In this document: positions 5,182 through 21,292 of the stretch, one piece after another
Layout: every line of letters begins with the position of its first letter
Numbering within the stretch: position 1 is the stretch's first letter
Made by a program: the position numbers and the translations under genes
Virus record (IMG/VR): IMGVR_UViG_3300035698_008552
Coordinates: 1 to 31,850 of that record
DNA length: 31,850 nt
Origin: a virus
Direction: 5' to 3' (one strand)
Notes under the pieces: model-generated
The model's input: only the letters and a program-made list of their open reading frames with translations
Told to the model about the DNA's origin: nothing
Databases searched by the model: none

Positions 5182-7830
5182 ATGACGTTATTGTGTCATG
5201 GGGTTGGTCGTTTTCAAACGCACTCGGGAACGGGCGTTGCTTACGATGGAATAGAATGGTCGACCATCGTAACGATGTTAGGCACTCCGCAGTACGTTAA
5301 AAAGGAGGACGCTGCCTGGGTTATCGGATCCACCTACCGCGCGGACAATGGTCGAGAAGCGGTGGCGCAAAATGCGGAGGGACTGTTCTACTACATGTGG
5401 GCGGACCTGGACAAGGGTAACGCTGGCCTTTCTGACGTCGTTAACGCGTTGCGCAAAGTTTTTCCTGATGGCGAGTGGCTTGTTTACTCGACCAAGAGCT
5501 CGGAGCCAGAAAACCGAAAGTGGCGGATTATGGTGCGGATGGCGGTATCGATTGTTGGTCGAGCCTACGCCGCCTACCAGCAGGGCTTTAACGAAGCGCT
5601 TACCCAGCTAGGACTGCATCCGGATAGCTCATCAATCTCGGTCAATCGAATATGCTTTTTGCCGAACCGAGGCGCGCATTACGATACACACTACCATGAA
5701 GGACGTGCGGTTGACCTGACCGACAGTTGGTTCACGAAGCGAGCCACTGAGATATATCAAGACTTCCTGCTGCGGGACACCGAGTACCAAAAGCGCCGAA
5801 CCGAAACATCGCGCATCAAGCGCAGCGGCCACAACTCACACATCGATGCATTTCGCGCAGAGAACCCGCCAGACCAGCTCCTCGAGCGTCTCGGCTTTGT
5901 AACGCGCAACGGTATTTCATGGCACCATCCCCAACTGCAGGTCGGCCATTCGTTCGCCACCGATCTCTACGCAGACGGCGGCATATTCACTCTGAGCTCT
6001 TCCATAGGTGGACCGACAGCAGCTGGCGGCCATGCGACCAACGGCGGTTGGTACTTTAACGACGGCTACGATCTTGCGCGCTACATCTGGTTTGCCAAAG
6101 GCAAGGAGGGTGACAACCAGATGAAGGCCATCGCGGGTCAGATGCGCGACAAAAGGCAGGACTACTTCCTTGCCCACGGACGCGATCAAGCGTTGCGCAT
6201 CCTGCCGTCAATGGAAGCCGCGATCCACAAACGTAGAGGCAACAGCCTCAGCCTCGTGCAGTGGTCGGTCGAGGCACAGGCCGCTGACTTGGATCGTGCA
6301 CAAAAGGAATCACTCGAGTTGGCCGCGCTGCAAAAGCGTGCCGAGACCGACAGGATCCGAAGTCAGCACCAGCTTTGGGGTGGCGATTGGATGAAGCAGG
6401 TACCGTTCGAATTTGACGACACGGTAAACGAGTGGGAGTGGCTTGCTTGGCATGCGCCTGGTGTCCTCGGAAAGCTGGTGCGTGACAATGCGCGATTCTC
6501 CGCAAAGGCCACATTGGTGCCGAGCCTCGTAGGAGCTCTTGGCGTGCTCGCGCATAGATGCCAAGGCAAGTTTGTCATGGGCTTCTCTGGACACATAACG
6601 CCGCCATCGCTGCCCATGCTTCTCATAGGTAACTCCGGAACGGGTAAGGCTGACGCGAACAAGCTTTTCCGCAGGGTCAACAAGTACCACGAGCTGCCCG
6701 CTGCCGACTCGCGCCAAGAGGTGCGCATGTTCGCATCCGGAGCAGCGGTTACCCGACACCTTTCGCAGTACCCAAACACCATCGTAATCGACAGCGAGTA
6801 CGGGGCTGGCCAGTCAGCGATGAAGGGGAACTCAAACGGCGGCCACCACGACGACGAGCGTGCCAAGCTCACCGACGCGATGTCCGCGTTCGTAGAAGGG
6901 CTCGGCGCTTCCAAGAACTCCGACAGCGGCAAGTCAACGCCAGCGGTGCACAATCCATGCATCAGCGCAATCCTCAGCTCGACGCCTGAGCGATTCGCAG
7001 AGGCCGTTTCGGAACGCGATGCCGAGGGCAGATTTCTAGGACGCTTCGTAAGCTTCGCCGTATCGGATCCGCAGAACCTTCCCAAGCGTGATCGCGGAGT
7101 CTTCGCGGGCGACATTCCAGAGGACGTCAGGCTGTGGCTCGACTACATAGAGTCCATCGCAGCGCCGCAGACCGAACGCTTGCCAGCACCGACCGACCCA
7201 GACGGCGCACTCGGATTGGCGTGGCGCGGGCAGTACCGGTGCTTCCACATGTTGGTCCCCGACGCCGAGGCAGCAGTCGAGCTCGGAAAGCTCATCGCAC
7301 GCATGGATAAAGAACGTCAGCGAGCCATCCAGTCAGGCGAGCGAACGCGCGCACACCTCATGAACCGTGGACCAGAACGCGTCAGCAGGCTCTCGCTCAT
7401 CGCAGCGCTTGCCCAGCTGTCGCCAAGTCGACCACCAGTCATTACAGCGGACTGCGTGCGATGGGCAAACAGCGTTGTCATGGCGTCGATAAACCACTTG
7501 TCCGCAACGAGCAATAGTGGCGACGACGACAATTACGTATCGATGTGCCACGCGCGCATAAAGGATATGTTCCGTCGCATCGAAGAGGATCCGAGCTTCG
7601 CGGCCAGCCTCGGTAGCGACTGCCGGAAAGTGGACGTGCCAAGTCTCGGGGTGACAAGAACGGAAGTTAAGAGATTCAAGCTACGCTCGTATATAAGGCG
7701 CAACAAAGCAGCCGCGTATGTTTGCGACCGAGAGTTGGATTCGCTGGTGGAGGAGAGAATATTGCTCTGCAACCAGGAAGTTGTCCTCGGAAAGACGGTC
7801 ACCTATTATTCACTTATCGGGCGTATCTAG
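5182..7830 (+). CDS. Primase-helicase: PrimPol-like N-terminus plus DUF3987 ATPase
   Basis: 882 residues. The N-terminal part resembles an archaeo-eukaryotic-type primase: a WADLD segment with D75 and D77 as likely metal ligands, YSTKSSEPENRKWRI near 102-116, and DSSSISVNRICFLPNRG near 148-164, the usual three PrimPol motifs. After a linker, residues about 440-700 match DUF3987-type ATPases: Walker A GNSGTGKA at 483-490 and Walker B TIVIDSEYG ending near 541. The C-terminus (about 780-882) is basic and probably winged-helix-like. It would make primers and unwind DNA at the repeat-rich region directly downstream. The residue after the Walker lysine is Ala, not Ser/Thr. The ribosome site before ATG 5182 is weak (GGGA), so a later start is possible. 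Confidence 0.8.
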   Translation: MTLLCHGVGRFQTHSGTGVAYDGIEWSTIVTMLGTPQYVKKEDAAWVIGSTYRADNGREAVAQNAEGLFYYMWADLDKGNAGLSDVVNALRKVFPDGEWLVYSTKSSEPENRKWRIMVRMAVSIVGRAYAAYQQGFNEALTQLGLHPDSSSISVNRICFLPNRGAHYDTHYHEGRAVDLTDSWFTKRATEIYQDFLLRDTEYQKRRTETSRIKRSGHNSHIDAFRAENPPDQLLERLGFVTRNGISWHHPQLQVGHSFATDLYADGGIFTLSSSIGGPTAAGGHATNGGWYFNDGYDLARYIWFAKGKEGDNQMKAIAGQMRDKRQDYFLAHGRDQALRILPSMEAAIHKRRGNSLSLVQWSVEAQAADLDRAQKESLELAALQKRAETDRIRSQHQLWGGDWMKQVPFEFDDTVNEWEWLAWHAPGVLGKLVRDNARFSAKATLVPSLVGALGVLAHRCQGKFVMGFSGHITPPSLPMLLIGNSGTGKADANKLFRRVNKYHELPAADSRQEVRMFASGAAVTRHLSQYPNTIVIDSEYGAGQSAMKGNSNGGHHDDERAKLTDAMSAFVEGLGASKNSDSGKSTPAVHNPCISAILSSTPERFAEAVSERDAEGRFLGRFVSFAVSDPQNLPKRDRGVFAGDIPEDVRLWLDYIESIAAPQTERLPAPTDPDGALGLAWRGQYRCFHMLVPDAEAAVELGKLIARMDKERQRAIQSGERTRAHLMNRGPERVSRLSLIAALAQLSPSRPPVITADCVRWANSVVMASINHLSATSNSGDDDNYVSMCHARIKDMFRRIEEDPSFAASLGSDCRKVDVPSLGVTRTEVKRFKLRSYIRRNKAAAYVCDRELDSLVEERILLCNQEVVLGKTVTYYSLIGRI

Positions 7831-17251: not shown

Positions 17252-17421
17252 GCATTAATAAGTTTCGCGGCAAGCTGTATCAACTTGCCAAGGTGCTCGG
17301 TGACGTCCAGGCTGTCGCACATAAGAAGCCAGCTAAGGCGATACCCAAACGGATAGGTCGCCGCATCGCTGGTAAACTCACGGGGCGCATCATGGGCTCC
17401 ATATTTCCATCGACCAAGTAA
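17248..17421 (+). CDS. Short, strongly basic protein
   Basis: I read a 57-residue frame starting MSINKFRGKLYQLAKVL, with the ATG overlapping the previous stop as ATGA and the TAA at 17419-17421. It contains about 15 Lys or Arg and almost no acidic residues (KKPAKAIPKRIGRRIAGK), and ends MGSIFPSTK. The positive charge suggests nucleic acid or membrane binding. Function unknown. A longer frame exists on the opposite strand (17230-17523) but has no ribosome site or context. Confidence 0.6.
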   Translation: MSINKFRGKLYQLAKVLGDVQAVAHKKPAKAIPKRIGRRIAGKLTGRIMGSIFPSTK

Positions 17422-17434
17422 GGAGACTGACGCA

Positions 17435-17608
17435 ATGAAACTCTCGCCAGACGAACTTGCTGAGCAGGTCAAAAAGATGGTAACCGACAACGGCGACCTT
17501 TTGACTTTACTCAAACTCGACACAATCCGAGGATCGCACAGCTACACACCGCTTGGCTACTGGCGCACGGACGGTACGCCAGTAGCTGTTTTGGTATCCG
17601 GCAGTTAA
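17435..17608 (+). CDS. Small hypothetical protein
   Basis: I read a 57-residue frame from ATG 17435, preceded by AAGGAG about 10 bases upstream, to TAA 17608. It opens MKLSPDELAEQVKKMV (helical, acidic), and the second half (SHSYTPLGYWRTDGTPVAVL) looks like a beta hairpin. Function unknown. The gene belongs to the same rightward operon. Confidence 0.6.
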   Translation: MKLSPDELAEQVKKMVTDNGDLLTLLKLDTIRGSHSYTPLGYWRTDGTPVAVLVSGS

Positions 17609-17630
17609 ACGTATATAAAGGACAACTCGA

Positions 17631-17867
17631 ATGCTAACTCTTTACGCCGATGACGATCACCAATTCGATGAGCTTCGCAAAAGACTGCTGGCGTGGATCC
17701 CGGCCAACAGCGCGACGTCGGGGCTGCATGTATTCCCCATCGATCTTGTGATTCGAGTAACAATGGTCGGAGATGTCCGATCCTTGCTGGACGATCTTGT
17801 GCGCGACGAGGTCTTTGACCCGACGCTGACGACTTACGTAGTCGATGAAGACGACATCCCGTCATGA
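17631..17867 (+). CDS. Acidic hypothetical protein
   Basis: 78 residues starting MLTLYADDDHQFDELRKRLL. It is acidic (many Asp, ending YVVDEDDIPS), with an alternating helix-strand pattern similar to a small ferredoxin-like fold. Its stop overlaps the next ATG by 4 bases. No known domain is recognised. Confidence 0.6.
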   Translation: MLTLYADDDHQFDELRKRLLAWIPANSATSGLHVFPIDLVIRVTMVGDVRSLLDDLVRDEVFDPTLTTYVVDEDDIPS

Positions 17868-18163
17868 CCTACTATCACGCCAGGCGCGAGCTGGCCACCG
17901 AGGCTGGGGATACGTATCGGTCGCACTTTGCAGTACGCGTCGAGCTTGAACCTAACAACGGATGGGTTTTGGTGCTGACGCCTCTCTCCAACTCGGTTTT
18001 CGACTACCCTATTGGTCCGCTGCTATCCATTGCGGAGATCGACCTGACCGGATACGCGCGACTGCGGAGGCGACCAGAGTCTCATCGCAAGACTTCAGCG
18101 CCGCCACTAAAGAATCCGATGGCCGCGTTCTCGGCTGACAAGAAACCGTGGGAGATCAGTTGA
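17864..18163 (+). CDS. Hypothetical protein
   Basis: 99 residues from ATG 17864 (ATGA overlap). The N-terminal half is beta-like (HFAVRVELEPNNGWVLVLTPLSN). From about residue 66 a basic, Pro-rich tail follows (RLRRRPESHRKTSAPPLK). No family is recognised. It is the last gene before the DUF3489 gene; the 70-base gap that follows shows no hairpin of note. Confidence 0.6.
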   Translation: MTYYHARRELATEAGDTYRSHFAVRVELEPNNGWVLVLTPLSNSVFDYPIGPLLSIAEIDLTGYARLRRRPESHRKTSAPPLKNPMAAFSADKKPWEIS

Positions 18164-18233
18164 CTCTGATGTAAAAACTGCTTAGAAACGAGTCATGGCA
18201 ACCACGCCGCAGCATTCGGAAGGAACCACCGAA

Positions 18234-18794
18234 ATGAAACTCACCGACACGCAGCTTATCATCCTGACCAAAGCATCGATGCATCCTGAGCTTATCGCGA
18301 TGCCTCTTCCCTCGAACCTTCGCGGTGGGGCAGCAACAAAAACGGTCTCCTCGATGATCGCAAAGGGACTTCTGGTCGAGGTCGATGCGAACATTCGCGT
18401 CGGGGACGTGATGTGGCGCGAAACTGGCGACGGTCACGGGGTCACCCTGATGGCGACAGCCGAGGGGATGGCCGCCATCGGCCTGGACGAGCTCACACGC
18501 GCGCCAACAGCCGCTGCGCCGCCCATGGAGGCACCGACGCAGGCTGCGCCGACGCCAGAGCCTTCGGCGGCCACGCCAGCGCCTGTCCAGACCAAGATCA
18601 AAGTCAAGGGCCGCAAGCAGGAGGCGCTGATCTCGATGCTTAAGGACGGCACAACGGCTGTCGAGGCAGCTGCAGCGCTTGACTGGGAGGTCCACACTGT
18701 TCGCGGAGCCATCTTCGGAGCCATCAAGAAGGCTGGTCACACAATCACCTCGGTCAAGGTCGAAGGTCGAGGCCGGGTTTACTACGCGGACTGA
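18234..18794 (+). CDS. DUF3489 domain protein, helix-turn-helix-like
   Basis: 186 residues from ATG 18234, selected because GGAAGGA lies 9 bases upstream and homologous proteins typically start MKLTDTQLIIL-like; ATG 18195 would add 13 residues. Residues 1-85 form a helical, winged-type domain. A Pro/Ala-rich linker follows (about 90-122). The C-terminal domain (KQEALISMLKDGTTAVEAAAALDWEVHTVRGAI) matches DUF3489, with its TVRG core and final GRGRVYY. DUF3489 is thought to be a DNA-binding helix-turn-helix. It stands just before the late operon, so a regulatory role is plausible, though unproven. Confidence 0.8.
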   Translation: MKLTDTQLIILTKASMHPELIAMPLPSNLRGGAATKTVSSMIAKGLLVEVDANIRVGDVMWRETGDGHGVTLMATAEGMAAIGLDELTRAPTAAAPPMEAPTQAAPTPEPSAATPAPVQTKIKVKGRKQEALISMLKDGTTAVEAAAALDWEVHTVRGAIFGAIKKAGHTITSVKVEGRGRVYYAD

Positions 18795-18812
18795 ACACGG
18801 CGACTTGCCAGA

Positions 18813-18846
18813 CCTATGGGATTCGGTTACTGCTGGATCCCATAGG
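18813..18846 (+). promoter_or_regulatory. Stable hairpin just upstream of the NusG-like gene
   Basis: CCTATGGGAT (18813-18822) and ATCCCATAGG (18837-18846) form a perfect 10-bp stem with a 14-base loop; flanking TTGCC/GGCAA can lengthen it with an internal gap. No U-run follows, and the ribosome site AAGGGAG comes right after, so a leader RNA structure is more likely than a terminator. Confidence 0.6.
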
Positions 18847-18860
18847 GCAAGGGAGTCGGC

Positions 18861-19475
18861 ATGCTAAATGAGTGGCAGATACTAACCGTTCAACCATTCG
18901 CAGCTACGTTTCCGCTTATGGAAAGGCTCACAGGATGCATCGTCGACATTGCTGGGCCACGCAAGGGACGTCCGCTGATATCAGAAACGCCAAGGCCAGT
19001 CGCTTGGACGCCTATCACATGCACCAGTTATCGAAGGCCGCGAACCACCAACTACATAGAGCGCGTGCAGCAGATGCTGAGTGGTATCCTTTTCATGGAT
19101 CCGGATATCGTAAGCGAGGTTATCGCTAAGACATCGCGCGGCGAGATCATACTAAACGGTAAGTACGTAAACGTTGCGCGCTTTATGTTTAACGACAGAG
19201 AGCGATTTGTTTCGCCAAACGAGCTCAGCCGCCTACGTGAAATTGAGCAGCAGTCGTGGCTTTCGCGGATGGAACGCGACAAGCACGGACTACCGAAGCT
19301 CAAGCCTGGTGACAAGGTTCGATTCAAGGACAGCATTCTTGGGCTGCACGGCACTGTTAATCGCGTTGCCGGGGACCAGATAAAGGTCACACTTACCAAC
19401 GGCGTGCTACAATCTGCTGTGGTTTCACGTTTGATGCTTGACTTAATTCCAAACGCAGGTCAAAGCTCCTCGTAA
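18861..19475 (+). CDS. NusG-like protein with KOW domain (candidate late antiterminator)
   Basis: 204 residues. The start, LNEWQILTVQPFAA, has the W-x-h-L-x-V-x-P of NusG N-terminal domains. A MLSGILFMDPD segment (72-82) resembles the NusG GYVLV strand, and residues 147-178 (LKPGDKVRFKDSILGLHG, followed by NRVAGDQIKVTL) form a KOW domain. NusG paralogs bind RNA polymerase and change pausing or termination. Placed directly before terS and a late operon of more than 12 kb, it is a candidate antitermination or processivity factor. AAGGGAG is 6 bases before ATG 18861. A residue stretch of about 60 between the N-terminal strands (about 28-65) is an insertion relative to typical NusG. Confidence 0.75.
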   Translation: MLNEWQILTVQPFAATFPLMERLTGCIVDIAGPRKGRPLISETPRPVAWTPITCTSYRRPRTTNYIERVQQMLSGILFMDPDIVSEVIAKTSRGEIILNGKYVNVARFMFNDRERFVSPNELSRLREIEQQSWLSRMERDKHGLPKLKPGDKVRFKDSILGLHGTVNRVAGDQIKVTLTNGVLQSAVVSRLMLDLIPNAGQSSS

Positions 19476-19548
19476 TCTGCTGTTGGGCGCTAGGCACGAC
19501 GCGGTTAAATCAAGCTGGGGATGGCCCACGCAGGGATAAGTTTGCCGA

Positions 19549-20076
19549 ATGGAAGGCCGTGATATCGTGAACAACACAAAGTCATGGCGTAACATTTCCA
19601 ACGGCGCGCACCCTTTCACAACATCGCAGGAGCTTCTTGTCGCTGCCGCCGACTACTTCCAGTGGTGTGACAACCATCCGATACTGGAAGAAGATGTGGC
19701 CGTCTACCAAGGTGACATAACCAGGTACACGAAAAACAAGATCCGACCGTACACCCTTAAGGGCATGGCGGTCTACCTGAACGTAGCTGTCTGTAAGCTG
19801 GAGCGATACAAGCTCGATCTCGAGGGACTTGCCTCCGCGATGGAGCTTATCGAGCAGGTTATCTACACCCAGAAGTTTGAGCATGCCGCTGTCGGACTTA
19901 TGAACGCGACGTTTATCGCGCGTGACATTGGGCTGGCGGACAAGCAGGAAATAACAGGCATCAACGGCGGACCGATTCAACTGGAGGAAATCAGTGCTAG
20001 GGAACGAGTCAATAGCAAGCTCACTAGCCTCGCTGCCAGAATTACAACGGATCGAGTTGCTGGCGAGTCTGAGTAA
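19549..20076 (+). CDS. terS: Terminase small subunit
   Basis: 175 residues. The middle (RPYTLKGMAVYLNVAVCKLERYK) is the helix-turn-helix-like part of phage DNA-packaging small subunits. FEHAAVGLMNATFIARDIGLADKQE is the typical C-terminal helix with the ARD-GLADK signature, followed by a G-G-P-I-Q motif. It recognises the viral DNA end (pac or cos) and guides the large subunit. A weak AGGGATAAG precedes ATG 19549; a start at GTG 19567 is an alternative. It overlaps terL by 83 bases. The 73-base gap upstream contains no gene. Confidence 0.85.
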   Translation: MEGRDIVNNTKSWRNISNGAHPFTTSQELLVAAADYFQWCDNHPILEEDVAVYQGDITRYTKNKIRPYTLKGMAVYLNVAVCKLERYKLDLEGLASAMELIEQVIYTQKFEHAAVGLMNATFIARDIGLADKQEITGINGGPIQLEEISARERVNSKLTSLAARITTDRVAGESE

Positions 20077-21292
20077 CGCAGACTTAGCCGAGCTTGAATA
20101 CGACTGGAAGTTCTGGGCGCGCAAGAATCAGCTGACGCCAAGCGGAGACTGGTTGACGTGGCTGGTCATGGCTGGTCGGGGATTTGGCAAAACCGAAACG
20201 GGGGCCAACTGGATCCGCGAACGCTGGCTTAACGGGGCCATGCAAATTGCTATTATCGCGGAGACCCAAAAGGATCTCGAAGAGGTAATGGTAAAGCGCC
20301 TGATTGATATCCATCCGCCGAGTGAAAAGCCGACAGTTCGCTACAGCCCAGTTCGGATATCGTGGGCAAACGGCGCTACCGCGCTTGGTTACACAGGCAC
20401 CGAGCCTGACCAGCTGCGTGGTCCAGAGTTTGACACCGCTTGGGTAGACGAGCTTGCCAAGTATAAAAAGGCGCGCGAAGTTTGGGATATGCTCGCGTTC
20501 ACGATGCGCTTTGGTAATGACCCGCGCGTGATTGTTACGACTACGCCGCGTGCAATTCCTGTTATGCGCGAGATGCTGAATGATGAGACCACCGTGGTAA
20601 CGCGCGGGAGTACTTTTGATAACCGTTCCAATCTCCCGGCGGCCTTTCTCAATAAGCTGCAGAAGAAGTATGCCGGAACGCGACTCGGACGGCAGGAGCT
20701 CGAGGCGGAGCTTCTTGAAGACCTGGTCGGGGCGCTGTGGAATCATCAGGCCATTGACGAGACTCGCGTAGAGGCTATGCCAGCTATGCGCCGCATCGTT
20801 GTGGCTATCGATCCAAGCGGTACCAAGGGCGTCGAGGATAGCGGCGACAGCATCGGGATTGTTATCGCAGGTAAAGGCGTCGATGATCGCGGTTACGTTC
20901 TGGGGGACTTCACCTGCAAGCTTTCTCCGTCAGGCTGGGGCGCGCGGGCGGTTGAGGCGTACCACCGGTTCGGCGCTGACCGACTTGTTGCCGAGAAGAA
21001 CTTCGGCGGAGCCATGGTCGAGCACGTAATACGTACGGTCGACAAGAACGTGAGCTACAAGGAAGTCAACGCTAGTCGAGGCAAGGTTGTTCGCGCCGAG
21101 CCTATCGCGGCATTGTACGAGCAAAAGAGGATAAGCCACGTTGGCGGCTTCGCGGAGCTCGAGGACCAAATGTGCAGCATGGGACCGGATGGATTTGTGG
21201 GTGAAGGATCGCCTGATAGAGTAGACGCCTTGGTTTGGGCATTGACCGACCTGATGCTGGAAGACGATAGCTCCTGGGAGGGCACCATATGA
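19994..21292 (+). CDS. terL: Terminase large subunit
   Basis: 432 residues. The N-terminal ATPase has Walker A GRGFGKTE (61-68), Walker B with D152-E153 in FDTAWVDELAKY, and a TTTP coupling motif at 182-185. The C-terminal RNase H-type nuclease has D273 in AIDPSG, E334 in VAEKNFGG, and D408/D411 in SPDRVDALVWAL. It translocates DNA into the prohead and cuts genome-length units. The start is GTG 19994, within terS and preceded by GGAGGA 7 bases upstream; no closer ATG gives the full N-terminus. Its ATG-type successor, the portal gene, overlaps its stop by 4 bases. Confidence 0.95.
   Translation: MLGNESIASSLASLPELQRIELLASLSNADLAELEYDWKFWARKNQLTPSGDWLTWLVMAGRGFGKTETGANWIRERWLNGAMQIAIIAETQKDLEEVMVKRLIDIHPPSEKPTVRYSPVRISWANGATALGYTGTEPDQLRGPEFDTAWVDELAKYKKAREVWDMLAFTMRFGNDPRVIVTTTPRAIPVMREMLNDETTVVTRGSTFDNRSNLPAAFLNKLQKKYAGTRLGRQELEAELLEDLVGALWNHQAIDETRVEAMPAMRRIVVAIDPSGTKGVEDSGDSIGIVIAGKGVDDRGYVLGDFTCKLSPSGWGARAVEAYHRFGADRLVAEKNFGGAMVEHVIRTVDKNVSYKEVNASRGKVVRAEPIAALYEQKRISHVGGFAELEDQMCSMGPDGFVGEGSPDRVDALVWALTDLMLEDDSSWEGTI

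Follow-up and report, generated by a model that had tools for sequence, protein, structure and literature searches.

A possible phage-borne elongation factor for late genes: a very divergent NusG-like protein encoded just ahead of the packaging genes, with a conserved RNA hairpin upstream

RfaH and UpxY are NusG paralogs that specialise in long operons (PMC7819879). LoaP, a NusG paralog of Bacillus velezensis, is reported to bind a small hairpin in the leader of its target operon and to prevent termination there unaided by other factors (PMC12691694). Antitermination of phage or phage-like genes is also described for GafZ, which acts on the phage-like late cluster of the Caulobacter gene transfer agent in an alphaproteobacterium, and for p7 of phage Xp10; the accessible portions of the sources describe neither as a NusG paralog. 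In a search of mostly open literature, no phage NusG paralog for late genes was found in titles and abstract openings. Annotated NusG-type genes close to the terminase are present in Sinorhizobium phage phi3LM21 (ATE84713.1, upstream of the terminase) and in Rhizobium phage vB_RleM_PPF1 (YP_009099654.1, at the end of a record that the terminase opens).

The locus described here lies in a viral DNA of 31,850 nucleotides, the whole of which we call the window (positions 1 to 31,850 of IMG/VR record IMGVR_UViG_3300035698_008552). The NusG-like gene (18861..19475, + strand, ATG start) encodes 204 amino acids, with a KOW/SH3 barrel at about residues 140-198 and a probable NGN-like domain at about residues 1-119. 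As in the window, the NusG-type genes of phi3LM21 and PPF1 follow a replication or HTH gene and stand shortly upstream of terS and terL, at the terminase-proximal end of the early genes. A NusG-type gene before terS is therefore not new, and the dedicated phage paralog for late genes that the first-pass annotation had called an unusual strategy is not unusual in the sense of lacking precedent. However, the phi3LM21 and PPF1 proteins reach E 1e-18 to 1e-21 against the NusG, LoaP and UpxY models, which the window protein does not, and their loci bear no annotated partner of the DUF3489 type that precedes the gene in the window.

The open reading frame at 18861-19475 is a real gene under purifying selection. 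Homologs were found in the IMG/VR contigs L002 and L003, which encode one identical protein (74-75% identity to the window protein), and in the 34-kb contig L011 (62% identity), whose member was first found via its terS. The gene taken as a whole has a dN/dS ratio of 0.15-0.24 and its KOW part one of 0.06-0.08, with dS above 0.9; these values and the existence of relatives argue against a chance open reading frame. The KOW part is the best conserved: pairwise comparisons find 50-54 of its 59 residues identical, versus 63-84 of the 118-119 N-terminal residues. The W-x-h-L-x-V-x-P start, the GILFM strand and the C-terminal KOW-type stretch that had been picked out earlier can all be read in the 204-residue translation, as W5-Q-I-L-T-V-Q-P12, as residues 75-79 within SGILFM, and as KLKPGDKV...LGLHGTVNRVAGDQIKVTL at residues 146-178, respectively. 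The order of motifs in the protein (W-Q-I-L-x-V-x-P, P51, a basic stretch, SGILFM and KOW) is that of NusG.

The C-terminal KOW barrel is well supported. Two AlphaFold models were built, each on a three-sequence alignment; the second, with the L011 member as first sequence, was set aside because it was poor throughout (mean pLDDT 42), and the core of the barrel in the other reaches pLDDT 83-87. The closest solved structures to the barrel are Spt5 and NusG KOW domains (Z 7.5-8.4), with unrelated SH3-like barrels scoring 8.1 and 7.4-7.8, and in local profile-profile alignment (hhalign) the KOW part matches NusG profiles at E 0.011 and 0.016. The protein therefore has the KOW/SH3 barrel of the NusG/Spt5 family, though the Pfam KOW model is silent on it.

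Comparisons speak both for and against membership in the NusG family. The family phrog_6386, a NusG-type family named 'transcription antiterminator' that gave a match in all 14 control genomes, matches residues 47-196 collinearly in each of the three members (E 0.011, 0.0041 and 1.4e-5). When the window and L011 members were each split in two, neither half alone reached phrog_6386, which indicates that the score is drawn from both. The top Foldseek match in the PDB, and the only one below E 0.001, is Aquifex NusG (E 8.9e-4); in BFVD a phage protein that bears the name RfaH comes first (E 4.4e-4). The UpxY antiterminator model weakly matches the L011 member (E 0.0044, residues 107-187), whereas the NCBIfam RfaH models have no match at E <=1 in the window protein, P0001 or P0003; the NCBIfam LoaP model is likewise without a match at E <=1 in these three. 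The Pfam NusG and KOW models found nothing in the window or in the L011 contig, sequence searches of the PDB found no NusG, and a NusG profile of 34 alphaproteobacterial sequences, searched against 8767 ORFs, did not lift the three members above background: among the matches listed they came 102nd, 150th and 366th. The N-terminal half alone aligned with NusG profiles at E 0.43 and 0.51 (hhalign), and the best of 60 column shuffles scored lower, at 0.041 and 0.046; this half is also of low confidence in both AlphaFold models. In one of the two shuffle sets of the hhalign comparison, a single shuffle in 60 beat the real alignment (0.013 vs 0.031).

Matches and failures together lead us to regard the KOW barrel as well supported, NusG family membership as likely, and the polymerase-binding (NGN) domain in the N-terminal half as likely but unproven. 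A NusG-type protein, as the first-pass annotation had called it, is thus the best available identification; the structure prediction against NusG and RfaH that it had proposed bears out the barrel and puts Aquifex NusG first, but does not reach the N-terminal half with confidence. The protein could instead be no elongation factor but a regulator that binds RNA through its KOW/SH3 domain and has an unrelated domain at the N-terminus, a reading that we consider somewhat unlikely. Such a regulator might, for instance, act post-transcriptionally on its own gene, binding the leader hairpin and so controlling its own translation. The barrel alone is firmly identified, and the barrels of YajC and ProQ_C, which are other SH3-like folds, score equally on the C-terminus, both of which would fit such a regulator; yet the phrog_6386 match spans residues 47-196 and requires both halves, and the series of motifs from the N-terminal tryptophan to KOW follows NusG.

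The gene is placed directly upstream of terS, as had been claimed: a gap of 73 nt separates it from the terminase small subunit gene (19549..20076, + strand; PF16677, GP3_package, E 2.1e-21; phrog_606, E 2.3e-35). The gene for the large subunit TerL (432 aa; 19994..21292, + strand) opens the late head and tail genes, which run to the end of the record and include, after TerL and all on the + strand, portal, protease, major head protein, head morphogenesis, neck and tail genes. The last open reading frame of the late region (660 aa) runs off the end of the record, a linear sequence and possibly only a fragment. Of the late transcription unit of more than 12 kb that had been proposed, the same-strand packaging, head and tail genes are observed, but that the 12.3 kb downstream form a single unit is an inference. 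On the other side of the NusG-like gene lies the gene for a DUF3489 protein (18234..18794, + strand; PF11994, E 3.8e-14; phrog_10315, E 1.2e-37), a conserved neighbour; it was listed from an ATG at 18195, and the ATG at 18234 is the start common to all three relatives. Before it, the open reading frame at 17864-18163 has recognisable counterparts in the corresponding position of L003 (1734-2027) and L011 (3302-3571).

The order DUF3489, NusG-like gene, terS is the same in the window, L003 and L011. In L011, the open reading frame after terS (5485-7008, 507 aa, read as a terminase by eye) differs from the 432-aa TerL of the window, and the large terminase has likely been swapped, while terS is still 61% identical. 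The three-gene block was thus kept while its neighbour changed. This bears on the possibility that a NusG-type protein acts generally on host transcription, for instance by competing with host NusG or Rho, with no special link to late genes. The NusG-type genes of other phages could be cited for it, since that of S-CREM2 sits among small early-type genes and that of phage G among unnamed genes, both away from packaging genes; however, the order of the three genes retained despite a different L011 terminase (by eye), and the conserved elements that flank the NusG-like gene, make this general action distinctly unlikely. As to the host, the DUF3489 relatives in genomes are mostly of Rhizobiales type (five of six loci, the sixth being named Verrucomicrobiota) and the closest TerL matches are from Brevundimonas and Roseobacter phages, from which we would guess at an alphaproteobacterium.

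Between the DUF3489 gene and the NusG-like gene lies an RNA hairpin with a 15-bp stem and a 4-nt loop (18813..18846, + strand); 14 nt separate its end from the start codon. In the three relatives its RNA fold z-scores are -6.4, -5.7 and -4.6, the stem is paired in 93.3% of the alignment cells, and 5 of its 15 pairs are changed on both sides, versus at most 52.4% paired and 2 pairs changed on both sides in controls with slid partners. The shuffle counts are 2 to 37 of 500, from three sequences, which are few. A hairpin in which 14 or all 15 of the pairs form is in itself nothing unusual, with at least 8 matches at 6 places in the window and 1-8 per random control; the case for this one rests on its covariation and its position. 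A hairpin model run on eight records matched the window, the L011 contig and two short contigs at E 3e-8 or better. It had no match in phi3LM21 or in the L004 contig, which begins downstream of the hairpin, and its matches in G005 (E 0.051) and PPF1 (E 0.73) were taken as chance; phi3LM21 and PPF1 thus differ from the window in this respect as well. No convincing second copy was found within the window (next best E 0.75, the opposite strand of the same place excepted), and Rfam gave no match within 17400-20600, the hairpin included. Because the hairpin adjoins the ribosome-binding region of the NusG-like gene, translational autoregulation by a KOW/SH3 regulator is the main rival to a role in elongation.

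It is also evident that the intergenic sequence after the gene is conserved. A 59-bp element (19473..19531, + strand) begins at the stop codon and ends 17 nt short of the terS ATG, with 53 of 59 bases invariant in the three relatives; the 50-nt stretch with the highest conservation anywhere in the region falls within it. It forms no RNA structure (fold z +1.08, -0.57 and -0.15), and in IMG/VR its 20-nt core is present only in these same relatives. The first-pass annotation had missed both this element and the hairpin. The order DUF3489, hairpin, NusG-like gene, conserved element, terS is fixed in the three relatives. Packaging signals and late promoters may lie just upstream of terS, and a promoter, a pac or cos site or another DNA signal are candidate roles for the element. 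If the hairpin and the element served as a packaging signal, a late promoter or an operator bound by the DUF3489 protein, the NusG-like gene would be a passenger between them. Such a role would agree with the lack of RNA structure in the element and its place just upstream of terS, but the hairpin retains G-U pairs (one U-G pair is found in all three sequences), and these and the covariation suit RNA better than a palindromic DNA operator, so that we consider a passenger gene very unlikely. A further conserved site, the promoter-like TTGACT-N17-TAGAAA (18160..18188, + strand), lies upstream of the DUF3489 gene; its hexamers are invariant and the centre of its spacer is variable in the three relatives, and the pattern had no match in 385 genomes.

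The divergent NusG-like protein and the conserved hairpin point to, without proving, an elongation factor of the phage's own for its late genes. That the gene encodes a highly diverged, phage-borne and specialised NusG paralog of the RfaH, LoaP or UpxY kind, which antiterminates across the late operon, has in our estimate about an even chance of being right. Such a protein would probably bind host RNA polymerase via its NGN-like N-terminal domain, its KOW barrel would contact RNA or a host partner, and the polymerase would be made resistant to pausing and termination across the late operon. The NGN domain and its binding to polymerase are inferred, as are the antiterminating effect and its direction at the late operon; for the action on late genes, the basis is the position of the gene and its conserved flanking elements.

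A more specific version, in which the paralog is a LoaP-like antiterminator with its own cis-encoded RNA loading hairpin, appears rather unlikely by our reckoning. Polymerase starting from the promoter-like site upstream of the DUF3489 gene would reach the hairpin after some 620 nt of message; the protein would be loaded there, and the polymerase would then read through the late genes. Since LoaP is reported to load at a hairpin in the leader of its target operon, a LoaP-like loading site at the window hairpin is conceivable. The window likewise has a small RNA hairpin, a putative binding site of its protein. The LoaP hairpins are of the UNCG type, whereas the loop here is UACU/UAAC, and the LoaP hairpin lies in the leader of the target operon, whereas that of the window precedes the paralog's own gene, outside the leader of the first gene. 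The position just before the protein's own start codon means that loading and autoregulation could be one switch. If this reading holds, RNA-guided phage NusG paralogs for late genes would be a third route beside antitermination of the N and Q types, built on a compact pair of protein and hairpin, and the LoaP principle, so far one of Gram-positive operons, would reach phages whose hosts are probably alphaproteobacteria. Should the hairpin be only autoregulatory, the family is still a very diverged NusG-like protein missed by standard domain models, and such phage genes may be undercounted for that reason.

Scans of IMG/VR proteins found relatives only in L002 and L003, in the L011 contig and, as an 18-residue end, in L004. 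Among the best 80 of 92 DUF3489 loci, the NusG-like gene is present only in L002, L003 and L055 (the L011 contig), and the remaining loci had nothing better than E 0.5. No homolog was found in INPHARED phages with the window protein, in plasmids with P0003, or in genome contigs with the two-member profile A1, the forerunner of the family profile A3; A3 had no match in 385 genomes of the class of G004, and none of four genomes behind DUF3489 loci had a homolog, both searches being without a positive control. In five annotated relatives picked by terminase, no NusG is annotated before the terminase, nor did phrog_6386 find one there, a silence that is weak because the same search missed the window gene too.

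Several minor observations were made along the way. With P0003, INPHARED gave a match to Pseudomonas phage EKU1 (E 0.02), which we attribute to chance since it lies opposite annotated ribonucleotide reductase fragments and reaches only E 0.52 with A3, and another to an Escherichia phage at E 1. In the EKU1 record (L015:4781-5913), ribonucleotide reductase is annotated as short broken pieces with many overlapping frames, and the record may contain sequencing errors. The L011 contig bears a small KOW-like open reading frame (L013:1501-1665, that is G001:C1:10283-10447; phrog_6386 E 1.8e-4) on the strand opposite the late genes. A Microvirga genome has a NusG-type gene (L104:1390-2004; Pfam NusG E 1.2e-7) whose C-terminus is no normal KOW and which lies, by eye, between a replication-type open reading frame before it and an HNH-type one after it; it looks like a prophage NusG paralog. 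Finally, several phage-filed records (H33-H38, with Salmonella, Acinetobacter and Listeria labels) contain apparent housekeeping nusG genes, which suggests that bacterial sequence is present in the collection.
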